Source: a virus. From it: a stretch of 35,620 nt of DNA. Position 1 is the stretch's first letter. Each line of letters begins with the position of its first letter. Positions 24,872 to 33,283 of the stretch are shown here, one piece after another. The notes under the pieces were generated by a model. The model had not been told where the DNA came from. It worked only from the letters and a program-made list of their open reading frames with translations, and did not search any database. The position numbers and the translations under genes are program-made. The DNA lies in IMG/VR virus record IMGVR_UViG_3300027861_000095, positions 1 through 35,620 of that record; one strand, given 5' to 3'.

Positions 24872-24929
24872 CACCCGACGCCACCGAGACAGGAACAGCA
24901 ATCAGAACAAAGCGACGATCGGAGATAGA

Positions 24930-25712
24930 ATGACATGGGTACACAACCCGAAGGACTCCGAGAGCTCTCTCTCTTTAGCGGCGCGGGAGGCTGCCTGCTC
25001 GCAACCCAGCACCTGCTCGGATGGCGAGCCGTCTGCTACGTCGAGCGAGATCCCTACTGCGTCAAAGTGCTCAAACAACGCATGGCAGACGGACTGCTCC
25101 ACGACGCGCCGATCTGGGACGATTGCCGGACATTCGACGGCAAGCCGTGGCGGGGACTCGTCGACGTCATCTCCGCCGGCTTTCCATGTCAACCGTTCAG
25201 CGTCGCCGGGGCAAGCAAGGCCGACGCCGACGATCGCAACGGATGGCCGTGGGTCGCTCGGATCGTTCGCGAGGTGGAACCGCGCTACGTCTTCCTGGAG
25301 AACGTACCAGGGCTCCTTGCTTCCAGCCATGGGTACTTCGGAACCGTTCTTGGGGACTTGGCCGAAAGCGGGTATGACGTGCGCTGGACGTGCCTATCGG
25401 CTTCCGCCTGCGGGGCGCCTCATAAGCGAAGCCGACTCTGGATTGTCGGAGTCTCGAATACCTACACCGACAGCGGGAGACGCGAAGGGCGCGGGGAGCA
25501 GGAACCTCCCAGGATCAAAGGCGAAAGCCGGGGTCTCTTTGACCGATTACGTTCGGACGGGGAACTCTCACACGCCCCGGCGGGCGCGTGGTGGCGCATT
25601 GAACCCGATGTGGGTCGCGTGGCTCATGGGGTGGCCGCTCGGGTGGACCGACTTAAAGCCCTTGGAAATGGACAGGTTCCGGCGGTGGCTGCGGCTGCAT
25701 GGCGCCGACTGA
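24930..25712 (+). CDS. Overlapping +1-frame protein inside the cytosine methyltransferase gene
   Basis: 260 aa. ATG 24930 lies 5 nt before the methyltransferase ATG and shares its GGAG Shine-Dalgarno; the stop is 29 nt before the methyltransferase stop. The first ~110 residues are Ser/Thr-rich and look non-coding. From about 25275 on, the frame contains blocks I recall as recurring in phage proteins annotated near DNA methylases: ATSSWRTYQ, TWPKAGMTCAGRAYRLPP, PTPTAGDAKGAGSRN, ALNPMWVAWLMGWPLGWTDL. In the last 37 codons 34 end in G or C, against 18 of 37 in the methyltransferase frame over the same bases. It may be a real overprinted gene, possibly starting further in (ATG 25329), or a frameshift product. 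Confidence 0.5.
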   Translation: MTWVHNPKDSESSLSLAAREAACSQPSTCSDGEPSATSSEIPTASKCSNNAWQTDCSTTRRSGTIAGHSTASRGGDSSTSSPPAFHVNRSASPGQARPTPTIATDGRGSLGSFARWNRATSSWRTYQGSLLPAMGTSEPFLGTWPKAGMTCAGRAYRLPPAGRLISEADSGLSESRIPTPTAGDAKGAGSRNLPGSKAKAGVSLTDYVRTGNSHTPRRARGGALNPMWVAWLMGWPLGWTDLKPLEMDRFRRWLRLHGAD

Positions 25713-25741
25713 ATCAACCCGAGAAGGAGACAAAACAATGA
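24935..25741 (+). CDS. DNA (cytosine-5)-methyltransferase
   Basis: 268 aa. Motifs in order: I LSLFSGAGG (12-19, SAM binding), IV GFPCQPFS (82-89, catalytic Cys85), VI ENV (122-124), VIII APHKRSRLW (161-169), X ALGNGQVP (242-249). The variable target-recognition region between VIII and X is short (~60 aa), as in many phage enzymes. It methylates cytosine in a sequence I cannot predict. No endonuclease partner is evident, so restriction evasion is likely. GC at third positions falls from 28/37 codons (24962-25072) to 18/37 near the end, where another frame appears constrained. Its last residues NQPEKETKQ come from a junction repeat. Confidence 0.93.
   Translation: MGTQPEGLRELSLFSGAGGCLLATQHLLGWRAVCYVERDPYCVKVLKQRMADGLLHDAPIWDDCRTFDGKPWRGLVDVISAGFPCQPFSVAGASKADADDRNGWPWVARIVREVEPRYVFLENVPGLLASSHGYFGTVLGDLAESGYDVRWTCLSASACGAPHKRSRLWIVGVSNTYTDSGRREGRGEQEPPRIKGESRGLFDRLRSDGELSHAPAGAWWRIEPDVGRVAHGVAARVDRLKALGNGQVPAVAAAAWRRLNQPEKETKQ
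25710..25729 (+). repeat. Junction direct repeat A, right copy (20 bp)
   Basis: Exact copy of 24626-24645, 1084 bp away. It contains the stop codon of the +1-frame gene (25710-25712), the terminal codons of the methyltransferase, and AAGGAG, the Shine-Dalgarno for the following gene at 25738. Confidence 0.75.
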
Positions 25742-25935: not shown

Positions 25936-25981
25936 AGTTTTCTTCTGTTTTTTGTCAGACCCGTCGTGTAGATTCCTGCAT

Positions 25982-26212
25982 ATGGAAATGACAGAAACGT
26001 ACGCGGAGACGCGCCCTATCGTCGCGCATAACGTGCGACGGTATAGGCGCTTCCGCAAAATGACACAGGCGCAGCTCGCGGAGAGCGCGGGCGTATCCAC
26101 GAGAACGGTTCACGTGGTGGAAGACGCGGACGGCGATGGGTTCTCTCTGGGCACACTTTGCGCCCTATCCCATGCGCTAAACGTGGCGCCGGGGACCCTG
26201 TTTCGGAAATGA
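25982..26212 (+). CDS. Xre-family helix-turn-helix regulator
   Basis: 76 aa from ATG 25982. HTH_3/Xre domain: NVRRYRRFRKMTQAQLAESAGVSTRTVHVVEDADGDGFSLGTLCALSHALNVAPGTLF shows the five-helix pattern with the recognition helix at VSTRTVHVVED. No good Shine-Dalgarno precedes the ATG. A TAGATT (25969-25974) lies 7 nt upstream, so the message could be nearly leaderless, like some phage repressors, but no matching -35 is seen. It starts after an AT-rich 46-base gap. It may be a repressor or activator acting on the dyads in this region. Confidence 0.82.
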   Translation: MEMTETYAETRPIVAHNVRRYRRFRKMTQAQLAESAGVSTRTVHVVEDADGDGFSLGTLCALSHALNVAPGTLFRK

Positions 26213-26721: not shown

Positions 26722-27453
26722 ATGATGGAAGTGCAGACAAAGAAGAAGGCGACAGCGGCGCAGCGGCGCAAGGCGGCTCTCCGGGAGGAGGTCGCCGAAG
26801 ACCTCGCCGAGGCCGCTGCGCTCGCGGAGCGGGTCATCAACCCGCTGAGAGAGATCGAGACGCGCGCGCTGGAAGATCCGGACTGGAGCGACGAGCTCCA
26901 CGAGGCCGACGCGATCCGGCACGCCGCCAGTTCGTACGGGTCGACGTTGGAGCCATTCGAGATCGCGAGAATGTGCCGGGAGATCAAAGACATGGAGGAC
27001 CATGTCGAGCGCGTGGCCGAAGAATGCCGTCAACTGGTGCTACGCGCAAAGTCGAAGCTACGCCGCGCGGAATACCTGTTTCTGCCCGTCATCCGGAGTT
27101 GGGGCGACGGTGAGCAGCGCACAAGCAAGATGAGCCTGCGGCTACCGCATACGACGATGCGGCTCCAATGGCGTCGTTCGAAGGGGCGCGCCAAGGTACA
27201 GAACGAGGAGCGCACATTCGCCTGGTTGCGCGAGCAGTTCAAAGACGACGAGGCCGCGGAGGTGGCGGGCGTGCTCAAGGTGGAGCGGCGCCTGAGCGAG
27301 ACCGGATTGCGTGACATCATAGAGGGAGAGAGCCGGGAAGAGATCGACATCGGCACGGGCGAGGTACTGACCGTGCCGCTCCACGTTCCGGGCGTGGAGT
27401 ACACCGCCGGCGGCGAGAAGATGAGCATCATCAGAGGGAGGGCCAAGAAATGA
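26722..27453 (+). CDS. Gp157/Gam-like recombination accessory protein
   Basis: 243 aa; ATG ATG at 26722 with ACAGGAG upstream. The N-terminal half is a long coiled coil (RRKAALREEVAEDLAEAAALAERV; CREIKDMEDHVERVAEECRQLVLRAKSKLRRAEYL). The C-terminal half has SLRLPHTTMRLQWRR, then ERTFAWLREQF, then SETGLRDIIEG and a beta end VPLHVPGVEYTAGGEKMSI, the order seen in siphovirus Gp157 and Mu Gam-related proteins that protect DNA ends or support recombination. Its stop overlaps the annealing-protein gene by ATGA. Confidence 0.72.
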   Translation: MMEVQTKKKATAAQRRKAALREEVAEDLAEAAALAERVINPLREIETRALEDPDWSDELHEADAIRHAASSYGSTLEPFEIARMCREIKDMEDHVERVAEECRQLVLRAKSKLRRAEYLFLPVIRSWGDGEQRTSKMSLRLPHTTMRLQWRRSKGRAKVQNEERTFAWLREQFKDDEAAEVAGVLKVERRLSETGLRDIIEGESREEIDIGTGEVLTVPLHVPGVEYTAGGEKMSIIRGRAKK

Positions 27454-28325
27454 GCACGACGACAACGAACAAACTGGATTCGGCGCTGCTTGCGGCGCAG
27501 GCGGATGCGCCTGTTTTGCCGCAAGACGCGCGGAATAGCCACGCCGGCTATTCGTACTGCTCCGCGAAGAAGCTCATCGCGATCGGTGGCGCGCTGCTGC
27601 GGCGTCACGGGCTGGTTTTGATCCCGCTGGTGAGCGAACCGACCGAATGCGGGTCGCTGCATACGGGTTACCTTCTGCGTCACGCGGCGAGTGGCCAGTC
27701 CCAGCATTACACGCGGACCGTTGCGATCCACGCGCACCGCGGGAAAGAAATCGACAAGGCGACCGCCGCGGCAGACACTTCCGCATTCGCCTACATGATT
27801 CGACGCATCCTCTGCTTGCCAGATGTGGAATGCGAGCTGAACGATCCGGCGCCGTGCGCGGTGGAGGCGGAAGCGGCGCCAGCGCCGCCGCCAGTGCGCC
27901 CGAAGACGCCGCCTGTACCCGTCCGGGTAGCGCCGCGGCCGCCAATGGCGGCGCCGCGTATGTCGCCCGCGGGCGCGGCGATGGCCAAACAATTCGCGGA
28001 GCAGACCGTCGAGCGTACCGCGACGGACAAGCCGGCGCACAAAGAGGCTACAGCGCACGCGGGGACGAACGCGCTCCTGCACGAGCGCCTGCGCGAGTTG
28101 TCCATCTCGTTCCGTGACCACGGCGAGCGGCGCGGGCTCAAGAGCCGAGCTCGTGCCGCTCTGCTGGAAGAGTGGGCCGGGTGCAACCTCACCGGGCCGC
28201 ACCGATCCGATCCGACGTCGAAGATGCTCCTTCCCGATCTCGTGACGGAGCCGGTCCTCGAGAAGATCGAGCGCGGTTTCGCCGCGTGGAAGCAAGAAAC
28301 GGCCGGGGCCGGGGCGACTGCGTAA
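27450..28325 (+). CDS. ERF/Sak-like single-strand annealing protein
   Basis: 291 aa. The N-terminal ~135 residues match the ERF layout: LPQDARNSHAGYSYCSAKKL, LLRRHGLVLIPLVSE, LLRHAASGQSQHY, then GKEIDKATAAADTSAFAYMIRRILCL. A Pro/Ala-rich linker (about 140-180) connects to a helical C-terminal region ending in a poorly conserved domain. Such proteins anneal complementary single strands and catalyse phage recombination with an SSB; the SSB-like and Gp157/Gam-like neighbours fit. ATG overlaps the preceding stop. Confidence 0.8.
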   Translation: MSTTTTNKLDSALLAAQADAPVLPQDARNSHAGYSYCSAKKLIAIGGALLRRHGLVLIPLVSEPTECGSLHTGYLLRHAASGQSQHYTRTVAIHAHRGKEIDKATAAADTSAFAYMIRRILCLPDVECELNDPAPCAVEAEAAPAPPPVRPKTPPVPVRVAPRPPMAAPRMSPAGAAMAKQFAEQTVERTATDKPAHKEATAHAGTNALLHERLRELSISFRDHGERRGLKSRARAALLEEWAGCNLTGPHRSDPTSKMLLPDLVTEPVLEKIERGFAAWKQETAGAGATA

Positions 28326-30451: not shown

Positions 30452-32192
30452 TCCAAGACCGTACCAGGTCGAGATGGGGCGGGCGTTCGTCTCGCTGCTG
30501 GACAAGAATCCCGCGGCGCGGGCTATATGCTCGCTGCCGACGGGGTGCGGTAAAACCATTGCCGGGCTGATGCTGCATGAGGCGACCAAGAGCCGCACTC
30601 TATGGTTGGCTCACCGGGACGAGCTCATCACGCAACCGGCCGCGGCGGCGCGGGCGCTTATGCCGGACGGGCACGAGATCGGCGTGGTGCAGGCCGGGAC
30701 GAATGAGATCGACGCGCGGGATCTCGTTATAGCGTCCGTGCCGACGGTGTCGCGCACTAACCGACTGGCGCAGATCGCGGCGCAGCGGTTTGATCTCATC
30801 GTCGTGGACGAGGCTCACCATACCGCCGCGGATTCCTATAAACGGGTGCTGGCGACGTTCCCCGACACTCCGGTGCTCGGGCTCACCGCGACGCCGTCTC
30901 GCGACGACAAAAAGAGCCTGCTTGATGTGTACCCCGAGGGCATAGCGTACAAGTACAGCATCCGCCGCGCCGTGGAGGAGGGTTACCTGGTCCGGCCCGT
31001 GCCGCATCGGATCGTGCTCCCGGAGTTCGATCCAAACACGCTGGCGACCAGCCGGGTATCGGGGGACTTCGCGCAGGACGCGCTCGCAAAAGAGATGGTC
31101 ACCGAGGCCGCGGTGCTCGCCACATTGAAGGGCATCCAATACGCATATAGCCAAGGGCGTAAAATCCTCGTGTTCTGTGTCTCTGTGGGCCAGGCGAAGC
31201 TCGTCGCAGATCGCTGTAACAAAGAGGGAATGTCTGCAAGGTCTGTGTCATGCGACATGGGGCTAAACGCTCGCAGGCAGGCGGTTGCAGACCACAAGGG
31301 CGACAAGTTCCAGATTTTGACGAATTTCGGAATTCTGACCGAAGGGTACGACGATACATCGATCGATGCCGTAGTTATGGCGAGACCGACGCAATGCCAG
31401 GAACTGTACGTGCAATGCGTGGGCCGTGGTCTCCGCGTACATTGCGACTGCGGCGCGACGCGGCAAGACCCGCCATGCTCATGCGCGAAACCGGACTGTC
31501 TCATCGTTGACATGGTCGGAGCGCACGAGGCGCACGGGCTGGTCACCGCGGATACGCTGCTGGAGTACGGGCCGGGCGAGCTTCATCCATACGCAATGGA
31601 AGACGACGAGACGCAGGAACGGATAGAAAAGGCACGCCTTGCCGCGCTTGAAGAATTAGACATGGAGGATAGCCGCCTGCGGTCATTCCTTCGCGCCGTC
31701 GCGGGCAAGAGCGATCTATCACGCCAGTACGGGGAAGAGAACGGGCAGGAAACAAGCATACGATGGGCGTGCGTCGCGCAGAACAAGTGCTACACGCTAC
31801 CCGCGGGTGACGGAAGCGTACACGTGGAATCCAATGGCTACGGCGAATGGCGCGCGGTGTTCGAGCCTCGATCCAGAACGGAACCGCCTTCTCTGGTATG
31901 CGACTGGGGGCAAAAGGACATCGCGCTCACGGTCGCCGAGAAGCGCGTATTACAAAACGGTGGGCGGTGGGCGTGCAACGCCGATGCGCCGTGGCGGCAA
32001 CAGCCGGCGTCACCCGCGCAGATGCGGGCGCTGGAGAAGTGGCGGGTACACGTGCCGCGCGGTAAGGCGTTGACGAAGGGCGAGGCGGGGCGACTGTTGG
32101 ACATATCCGGAGCCCGCGCGCGGTGGCGCGATCGGCAACGGGGGAAGCGCGATGTTGTGGACCAGCAACCCGTAAACTGGTTGGCGATATGA
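30435..32192 (+). CDS. SF2 DEAD/DEAH-type helicase
   Basis: 585 aa. ATG 30435 has GGGAGG 9 nt upstream; GTG 30426 is a poorer start. Superfamily 2 motifs: I LPTGCGKT (34-41), II DEAH (125-128), III TATPS (151-155), motif V-like region ILTNFGILTEGYDD, VI QCVGRGLR. After motif VI a cysteine cluster (CDCGATRQDPPCSCAKPDC) suggests a zinc site. The C-terminal ~190 residues are unusual and end VDQQPVNWLAI, shared with the next gene product. It probably remodels replication or recombination intermediates. Confidence 0.92.
   Translation: MLATINPRPYQVEMGRAFVSLLDKNPAARAICSLPTGCGKTIAGLMLHEATKSRTLWLAHRDELITQPAAAARALMPDGHEIGVVQAGTNEIDARDLVIASVPTVSRTNRLAQIAAQRFDLIVVDEAHHTAADSYKRVLATFPDTPVLGLTATPSRDDKKSLLDVYPEGIAYKYSIRRAVEEGYLVRPVPHRIVLPEFDPNTLATSRVSGDFAQDALAKEMVTEAAVLATLKGIQYAYSQGRKILVFCVSVGQAKLVADRCNKEGMSARSVSCDMGLNARRQAVADHKGDKFQILTNFGILTEGYDDTSIDAVVMARPTQCQELYVQCVGRGLRVHCDCGATRQDPPCSCAKPDCLIVDMVGAHEAHGLVTADTLLEYGPGELHPYAMEDDETQERIEKARLAALEELDMEDSRLRSFLRAVAGKSDLSRQYGEENGQETSIRWACVAQNKCYTLPAGDGSVHVESNGYGEWRAVFEPRSRTEPPSLVCDWGQKDIALTVAEKRVLQNGGRWACNADAPWRQQPASPAQMRALEKWRVHVPRGKALTKGEAGRLLDISGARARWRDRQRGKRDVVDQQPVNWLAI
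32157..32190 (+). repeat. Junction direct repeat B, left copy
   Basis: 34 bases encoding the last 11 residues of the helicase (VDQQPVNWLAI) and the T of its stop. Compared with 33248-33281 only two bases differ, both silent third positions (GAC/GAT, GTA/GTG). It overlaps the start codon of the methyltransferase (32189). Confidence 0.8.
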
Positions 32193-33283
32193 GGTGGAGC
32201 ATCACTACCGGCGACGCGCTCGACGTGCTCGCCGCTATGGAGCCGCGAAGCGTTCAGACGTGCGTCACGTCGCCTCCGTACTGGGGTTTGAGGGACTATG
32301 GCGTCGATGGCCAGCTCGGGCTTGAGAGTACCCCGGAGGCGTTCGTCGCGCGCATGGTCGAGGTGTTCCGCGAGGTGCGCCGCGTGCTCCGGGACGACGG
32401 CACGCTCTGGCTCAACCTGGGCGATAGCTACTGCGCTTCTGCACCCGGGAAGTGCAGCGCCGATGCAATGGGTAAGAGTGGCTTGAACGGATGCGGCGAC
32501 AACAAATATGGCGATGACGCACGTGCAAAGCGTGAGGCTATGCGAAACCGCCCACCCCGTAACTTTAGCGGCCTCAAGCCGAAGGACCTTTGCGGCATCC
32601 CGTGGCGCGTCGCGTTCGCGCTCCAGGCCGACGGGTGGTTCCTGCGCTCAGACATCATCTGGCACAAGCCGAACCCGATGCCGGAGAGCGTGACAGACCG
32701 CCCGACGAAGTCGCACGAGTACATCTTCCTGATGAGCAAGTCGGCGCGGTATCACTACGATGCCGACGCGATTAGGGAGGCGCATACTTCATGGAACGGG
32801 GTCACGCGCGACGATTACCGTGGTGGCAAGGGGGATGAGCGGTTCGGCTTTGACTTGGCACCCACTGGCGGAGTGCTCCCGTCTGGGAGAAAGGAAGCGC
32901 ACGCGACGGGCACCCGGAGCGGGGCTAATCTCTCAAGCGCCTATTCGGGAGGCCCGCCAGGCAACCCCAAAGGCCGCAACAAGCGCAGCGTCTGGACCGT
33001 CACCACCCGCCCGTACAAGGGCGCGCACTTCGCCACGTTTCCACCGAAGCTCATCGAGCCGTGCATCCTCGCGGGCGCTCCACGGGGTGCCGTCGTGCTG
33101 GACCCGTTCGCCGGCGCCGGGACTACCGGGCTCGTCTCCGTCCGTTTGGGCCGGAGCTTCTGCGGGGTGGAGCTCAACCCCGTCTACGCAGAGATGGCGC
33201 GCAAGCGGATCATCGACGACGCGCCGCTGTTCAACCGTCGGGCGATGGTGGATCAGCAACCCGTGAACTGGTTGGCGATATAG
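32189..33283 (+). CDS. DNA N4/N6 methyltransferase, beta class
   Basis: 364 aa; ATG overlaps the helicase stop (ATGA). Catalytic motif IV SPPY (28-31) precedes the SAM motif FAGAGTT near the C-terminus (about residue 307), the circular order of beta-class N4-cytosine or N6-adenine enzymes (SPPY slightly favours N4 or N6 CcrM-like). Other motifs: LWLNLGDSYC, SDIIWHKPNPMPESVTDRPTKSHEYIFLM. The ~90-residue insert between catalytic and SAM regions is the target-recognition part. No nuclease partner is adjacent. It ends in the same 11 residues as the helicase. Confidence 0.93.
   Translation: MRWSITTGDALDVLAAMEPRSVQTCVTSPPYWGLRDYGVDGQLGLESTPEAFVARMVEVFREVRRVLRDDGTLWLNLGDSYCASAPGKCSADAMGKSGLNGCGDNKYGDDARAKREAMRNRPPRNFSGLKPKDLCGIPWRVAFALQADGWFLRSDIIWHKPNPMPESVTDRPTKSHEYIFLMSKSARYHYDADAIREAHTSWNGVTRDDYRGGKGDERFGFDLAPTGGVLPSGRKEAHATGTRSGANLSSAYSGGPPGNPKGRNKRSVWTVTTRPYKGAHFATFPPKLIEPCILAGAPRGAVVLDPFAGAGTTGLVSVRLGRSFCGVELNPVYAEMARKRIIDDAPLFNRRAMVDQQPVNWLAI
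33248..33281 (+). repeat. Junction direct repeat B, right copy
   Basis: Near-copy of 32157-32190 (32 of 34 bases), ending the methyltransferase gene. Together the copies bracket exactly one gene, so recombination between them would delete the methyltransferase and leave an intact helicase end. Confidence 0.8.

Follow-up and report, generated by a model that had tools for sequence, protein, structure and literature searches.

A probable nested two-polypeptide cytosine methyltransferase encoded in overlapping reading frames of phage genomes

The window analysed here is a complete viral record (IMG/VR virus record IMGVR_UViG_3300027861_000095) of 35,620 bases with 62% GC. It contains a cytosine C5 methyltransferase frame, denominated alpha or frame 0 in the following, which runs in parallel with a second open frame (beta, +1) on the same strand (Table 1). 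Both start codons (ATG 24930 and ATG 24935) lie downstream of one GGAG at spacings of about 5 nt and 10 nt, and the two frames stay open up to 25712 (+1) and 25741 (methyltransferase frame) with stops 29 nt apart. The GC3 content favours the +1 frame over positions 25598-25709 (34 of 37 codons versus 18 of 37 in the methyltransferase frame), and the methyltransferase frame reaches 28 of 37 at 24962-25072. A first-pass annotation of this DNA had already reported the common Shine-Dalgarno sequence, the parallel frames and these codon counts, and all were reproduced exactly. The start of beta is most probably ATG 24930, since no other ATG, GTG or TTG occurs in the +1 frame before 25317 and the betas of relatives begin at the same place; the start region of the window (ATGACATG) has the beta-then-alpha layout of these relatives.

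Table 1. Features of the overlapping methyltransferase locus in the window
Feature	Positions	Strand	Basis
Alpha: C5 methyltransferase catalytic polypeptide, 268 aa, motifs I-VIII and X, without IX	24935..25741	+	sequence, PF00145, AF2
Beta: +1-frame polypeptide, 260 aa, target-recognition modules and motif IX-like block (predicted)	24930..25712	+	
Candidate Shine-Dalgarno GGAGA, common to both starts (ATCGGAGATAGAATGACATGG)	24920..24924	+	sequence
Motif I LSLFSGAGG, alpha frame	24965..24991	+	sequence
Motif IV SAGFPCQPFS with catalytic PCQ, alpha frame	25172..25201	+	sequence
Motif VI FLENVPGL, alpha frame	25292..25315	+	sequence
Motif VIII GAPHKRSRLWIV, alpha frame	25412..25447	+	sequence
WPTP-type module IPTPTAGDAKGAGSRNLPGSKAKAGVSLTDYV, beta frame	25458..25553	+	69% identical modules in loci L305 and L077
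Motif IX candidate ALNPMWVAWLMGWPLGWTDL, beta frame	25596..25655	+	+1 amino acid diversity, Gordonia counterpart, phrog_1008 chain
Motif X ALGNGQVP, alpha frame	25658..25681	+	sequence; frame-0 codon pattern back here in homologues

Other genes of the window encode a terminase GpA (604-2607), a Cro-like HTH protein (25979-26209) and an ERF recombinase (27450-28322). A second DNA methyltransferase of the same phage is found at 32123-33280 (N6_N4_Mtase, E=1.4e-50). No restriction endonuclease was recognised among the tested neighbour genes, and the C5 methyltransferase looks like a solo phage enzyme.

Motifs I, IV (PCQ), VI (ENV), VIII and X are all located in the alpha frame, which identifies alpha as a C5 methyltransferase. 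PF00145 matches only alpha residues 10-179 (E=1.3e-35) and this match ends at profile position 167, while the match of M.HhaI to alpha stops at residue 175. Neither the PF00145 match nor the AF2 model revealed a target-recognition domain (TRD) and motif IX between motifs VIII and X of alpha. The earlier statement that all C5 methyltransferase motifs reside in the frame starting at 24935 is therefore correct for I, IV, VI, VIII and X and incorrect for IX, for which the +1 block at 25596-25655 is the candidate. In the AF2 model the pLDDT is mostly 87-98 up to residue ~180 and above 90 at the motif X helix, and it falls below 50 in residues 184-228, a segment that overlaps the beta modules and the motif IX candidate. 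Foldseek aligns alpha with M.HhaI over about 172 columns. This confidence profile and this alignment suggest a catalytic domain that lacks the small domain, and the VIII-X segment of alpha lying over the WPTP module is modelled as a disordered linker.

Taken singly, the open +1 frame of the window is weak evidence and not significant under one codon-usage null: shuffles with the codon usage from outside the overlap expect 0.26 stops in the +1 frame between motifs IV and IX, and those with whole-gene codon usage expect 3.4 in all. Homologues were obtained by scanning IMG/VR with degenerate frame-0 patterns (RVAHGVP; RVDRLxxLGNA) and, independently, with the +1 pattern WLMGFPxGWT. Across 203 homologous loci, which are non-independent samples with some close relatives among them, the +1 frame contains 18 stops between motifs IV and IX whereas synonymous shuffling expects 1061. 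The controls match expectation both in the +2 frame (2060 versus 2129 stops) and in the +1 frame before motif IV (188 versus 185). This means that the homologues and not the window alone decide in favour of overprinting, and kinship of the loci is unlikely to matter in view of the effect size and the matching controls. In distant homologues the +1 stops vanish from motif IV onward. A mere shadow of frame 0 as the source of the open +1 frame is ruled out by the synonymous shuffles.

The same constraint is visible in the choice of codons. RVAHGVP matches in methyltransferase context essentially all use CGN GTG GCT CAT GG(G) GT(T/A), which spells (E/A)WLMG(F/Y)P in the +1 frame, whereas matches outside methyltransferases have mixed codons. 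When 204 loci are aligned by codon, variability peaks at the frame-0 third position up to motif VIII and at the +1 third position throughout the WPTP modules and the LNPxWVEWLMGFPxGWTDL block, and the frame-0 pattern returns at motif X. The +1 methionine of WLMG is conserved to 96%, and the frame-0 residue at this place varies between H, D, N and Y. For the motif IX block the +1 amino acid diversity is 0.31 as compared to 0.71 after shuffling (z=-189), and it is also below the shuffles in the modules (z=-80), in the regions VI-VIII (-63) and IV-VI (-41) and in the N-terminal control (-8). The first-pass annotation had named two outcomes that would speak against a second protein, namely no database hits for the +1 frame and freely varying synonymous sites in the methyltransferase frame. 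Searched separately, the +1 frame gave matches (phrog_1008 with E=1e-22, phrog_26627 and 33 phage records by tblastn), in agreement with its statement that the +1 blocks recur in phage proteins; and within the last block the methyltransferase frame has frozen synonymous sites across homologues and the +1 protein is conserved.

A converse approach started from beta. A scan with the beta peptide only, which covered one genome per species (84,980 genomes), matched 333 stretches, 250 of them encoding relatives; the bacterial counts given here rest on the best 80 of these 250. According to their titles these 80 loci are distributed over at least a dozen phyla, with many of them being metagenome bins that may represent prophages. 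In all 80 (80/80) an ORF, mostly one with PCQ and ENV motifs, carries beta in its +1 frame, and among the same best 80 of 250 neither a standalone beta nor a beta in frame with the methyltransferase occurs (0/80), which rules out both an in-frame fusion and an independent beta gene as sources of the pattern. Over the 119 codons up to motif IX the methyltransferase frame of these best 80 loci has 1 stop versus 232.7 expected, and the third frame has 533 versus 501. Thus, selection acts on both frames, as the +1 frame is kept open in the viral loci and the methyltransferase frame in bacterial loci that were found through beta. Two peculiar cases may be mentioned here. One chromosome of Roseovarius (OX638333; L360-L364) has five alpha/beta loci with identical match scores, and a prophage copy in E. 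coli PCP07014 (L446 901-1662) has an alpha annotated as pseudogene with an internal stop and a +1 frame that is truncated too.

These data bear on the view that high GC and conserved frame-0 codons leave the +1 frame open as a by-product and that annotated +1 genes are artefacts of decayed methyltransferases. Its proponents could point to the one null expecting only 0.26 stops in the window alone and to several phage records that annotate the +1 frame only. The deficit of stops over 203 loci with matching controls as well as the frozen synonymous codons and the z-score of the motif IX block refute a by-product; and in phPA-G, Rctr197k, Vibrio phage 1.291.O, Mwe-JY08 and SOVA965, where the beta frame is annotated as gene, the alpha frame is intact in each, which argues against an artefact. 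Gene decay is ruled out since both frames are kept open, far beyond chance, and this explanation is considered as practically negligible. Of the three outcomes proposed in the first-pass annotation, the decay or annotation artefact is thus rejected and conserved overprinting is strongly supported by the 203-locus stop counts and the frozen synonymous sites. The third one, a programmed +1 frameshift, is disfavoured for the nested type by the start signals of beta and by motif X, which is found in the methyltransferase frame.

Beta has its own start signals, a direct result of the computation. Many loci have a +1 stop a few codons upstream of motif IV, followed by an ATG with Shine-Dalgarno sequence; such an ATG located 4-30 codons before motif IV is present in 72 of the 203 loci for the +1 frame, versus 1 locus for frame 0 and 3 loci for the +2 frame. 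In the closest relatives of the window, which are elements of Salmonella, Acinetobacter, Pseudomonas and Leptospira, the beta start lies within that of alpha, 14 nt upstream of motif I. Two twin-start layouts occur among these relatives, namely (A/G)TGAATG with alpha first and beta 4 nt later, and ATGAGTTG with beta first and alpha 5 nt later. In this clade there are 3 stops in the +1 frame before motif IV versus 24.9 expected, all of them in two loci where beta begins later, and after motif IV 0 versus 52. In E. coli, neighbouring start codons have been demonstrated to give rise to two frames (PMC9841429). A programmed +1 ribosomal frameshift that joins the N-terminal part of alpha to the C-terminal part of beta would have the merit of reading I-VIII, TRD and IX in order, and in two loci (L118 and L256) indels indeed join the two frames. 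Nevertheless, such a fusion is very improbable: the internal beta starts before motif IV and the twin starts in the clade of the window point to separate initiation, the +1 frame lacks stops beginning at motif IV or at the start codon and not at one late shift point, and in nested loci a single shift would lose motif X in frame 0. As a separate observation, the N-termini of many short betas (L159, L170, L172 and others) read MxxxQL(T/S)LF/W, similar to the sliding-clamp binding motif QLxLF; this partly shadows VDVI in frame 0 and may be due to chance.

What beta contributes can be approached from its conserved block LNPxWVxWLMGxPxGWTDL, which stands beside the WPTP-type modules. Searches of Pfam (PF00145 included), NCBIfam and PDB with beta gave no recognised family, and its AF2 model is poor (pLDDT 65, pTM 0.30) with no fold match, although low confidence would be expected for a partner-dependent chain and is not counted as evidence here. 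An hhalign comparison of beta with six canonical C-terminal regions yields a weak match (probability 3%, P 0.014) that places LMGFP on LQGFP. Since this direct profile comparison is weak, the identity of motif IX rests on a chain of homologues. In the mycobacteriophage Artemis2UCLA gp90 comprises motifs I-VIII followed by a stop, and gp89, in the +1 frame and partially overlapping with gp90, combines the same PTP modules with a block resembling motif IX and with motif X. In a Gordonia phage methyltransferase LSPVFVEWMMGLPRGW and motif X are in frame with I-VIII, and the former is the counterpart of LNPxWVEWLMGFPxGW in beta. The family phrog_1008 matches the nested beta, the staggered gp89 and the in-frame Gordonia C-terminus. 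These three links make motif IX (compare LTPRECWRLQGFPDW) the most likely identity of the +1 block, and the target-recognition region that of the WPTP-type modules.

Most betas have 1-6 modules with a median length of 38 aa, as counted with a text pattern across loci; the beta of the window has one clear WPTP module. Among 1014 similar module pairs (>=60% identity) 466 are located at different array positions, which suggests exchange as in multispecific Bacillus phage enzymes. In the Gordonia phage JKSyngboy (gp4, L410 1489-2553) the PTP modules are in the +1 frame and IX and X are in frame with I-VIII. This mixed layout is outside both the nested and the staggered type, so the division of labour varies. 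Some beta frames contain inserts, one with AAYAAGLIDGEGCIS that resembles a LAGLIDADG homing endonuclease (L109) and another common one with a TTVEHWF/TTIEHWF segment (L119, L221, L225). A different second +1 ORF is found over C5 methyltransferases with in-frame IX and X in Streptococcus phage MM1 (ORF14, L413 952-1377), phage P0091 (gp40, L404 1652-2071) and Lenus (L407). It ends with SLSDILEEEVDERYFLS, like a segment in frame after motif VIII in other methyltransferases; that of P0091 is phrog_16143, and MM1 and P0091 have both frames annotated as DNA methyltransferase.

The best explanation for the whole of these observations is, with a probability of roughly 85%, a nested two-polypeptide C5 methyltransferase like M.EcoHK31I, with beta supplying recognition and motif IX. 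Alpha would fold as the catalytic domain, with the sequence of its VIII-X linker dictated by the overlapping gene, and beta would provide the WPTP-type recognition region and the motif IX element that alpha is devoid of. Both would be translated separately, here from twin ATGs sharing one Shine-Dalgarno sequence, and would assemble into the active enzyme by analogy with the alpha and beta polypeptides of M.EcoHK31I; the likely role would be methylation of phage DNA against host restriction. The first-pass annotation had proposed conserved overprinting as one of its options, without naming the second protein as the one that would supply the missing recognition region and motif IX of the same enzyme and without mention of M.EcoHK31I as a precedent. 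Alternatively, beta could be a real overlapping gene whose product has a role outside the methyltransferase, such as antirestriction or regulation. This would fit with PF00145 not recognising beta, with the lack of a confident fold model and with the constrained N-terminal part over motifs IV-VIII that has no assigned role. It is nonetheless unlikely, because beta was always in the +1 frame of a methyltransferase (bacterial loci: best 80 of 250), alpha is without motif IX and its TRD segment is modelled as disordered, Artemis2UCLA fuses the same modules to IX and X, and the Gordonia counterpart of IX is located inside a methyltransferase.

The arrangement appears common to hundreds of phage and bacterial genes, with most databases annotating one of the two proteins. 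That a large share of phage C5 methyltransferases are such two-gene enzymes seems somewhat probable to us; their overprinted and separately translated subunit would carry swappable recognition modules, so that specificities are changed or added in the +1 frame where the catalytic frame is reduced to a linker. If true, many annotated phage cytosine methyltransferases would be half-enzymes with the recognition subunit hidden in the other frame, the annotated gene expressed alone may yield an inactive protein, and predictions of specificity would fail. With both frames selected over about 200 codons in loci from many phyla, the arrangement ranks with the clearest examples of long same-strand overprinting in phages and bacteria, and it offers a natural system for studying the evolution of two proteins that belong to one complex and constrain each other's coding.

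The two-polypeptide principle is already known from M.EcoHK31I and M.AquI. What appears undescribed is how widely it occurs, together with the swappable beta modules and the twin starts; a search of the literature on overlapping or overprinted cytosine methyltransferase genes in phages gave no description among the papers covered. In Paenibacillus phage Likha RefSeq annotates both frames (gp51/gp52; compare phrog_363/phrog_1008) as DNA methyltransferase. They are the same nested alpha/+1 beta pair; the annotation makes no mention of conserved overprinting, and we know of no functional work on these two proteins. The ShiLan domain, a hidden HNH endonuclease, is likewise an out-of-frame protein inside a (mycobacterio)phage methylase gene (PMC11855218). 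In contrast with beta it is a mobile insert in the third frame and not a part of the enzyme. The multispecific C5 methyltransferases of Bacillus phages SPR, phi3T and H2 have tandem target-recognising modules on one polypeptide (PMC12707154, PMC8936443), whereas the modules of about 38 aa described here are separated from the catalytic polypeptide and encoded in the +1 frame. M.AquI (CYCGRG) is a naturally split C5 methyltransferase with catalytic and recognition parts on two polypeptides, the small subunit carrying IX and X (PMC3404938). The pair gp90/gp89 of Artemis2UCLA follows this layout; in the window, in contrast, motif X (LGNGQVP) is in the alpha frame and beta is nested.

The small gene of M.EcoHK31I is nested in another frame inside the large gene, and the second polypeptide of the window is likewise encoded in another frame within the first. 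In M.EcoHK31I (YGGCCR) motifs I-VIII and X as well as the predicted TRD belong to the large polypeptide, with only IX being on the small one (PMC3404938), and methylation needs both polypeptides according to the title of Lee, Kam and Shaw 1995 (cited in PMC3404938). The window alpha, too, has I-VIII and X without IX. The likely recognition modules of the window, unlike the TRD predicted in the large subunit of M.EcoHK31I, are in the +1 frame, and the window enzyme further differs in being apparently a solo phage methyltransferase with broad occurrence and twin starts. As the likeness is one of described layout, with the nesting taken from general background, we regard the present enzyme as a variant of the M.EcoHK31I kind and not as its proven relative.
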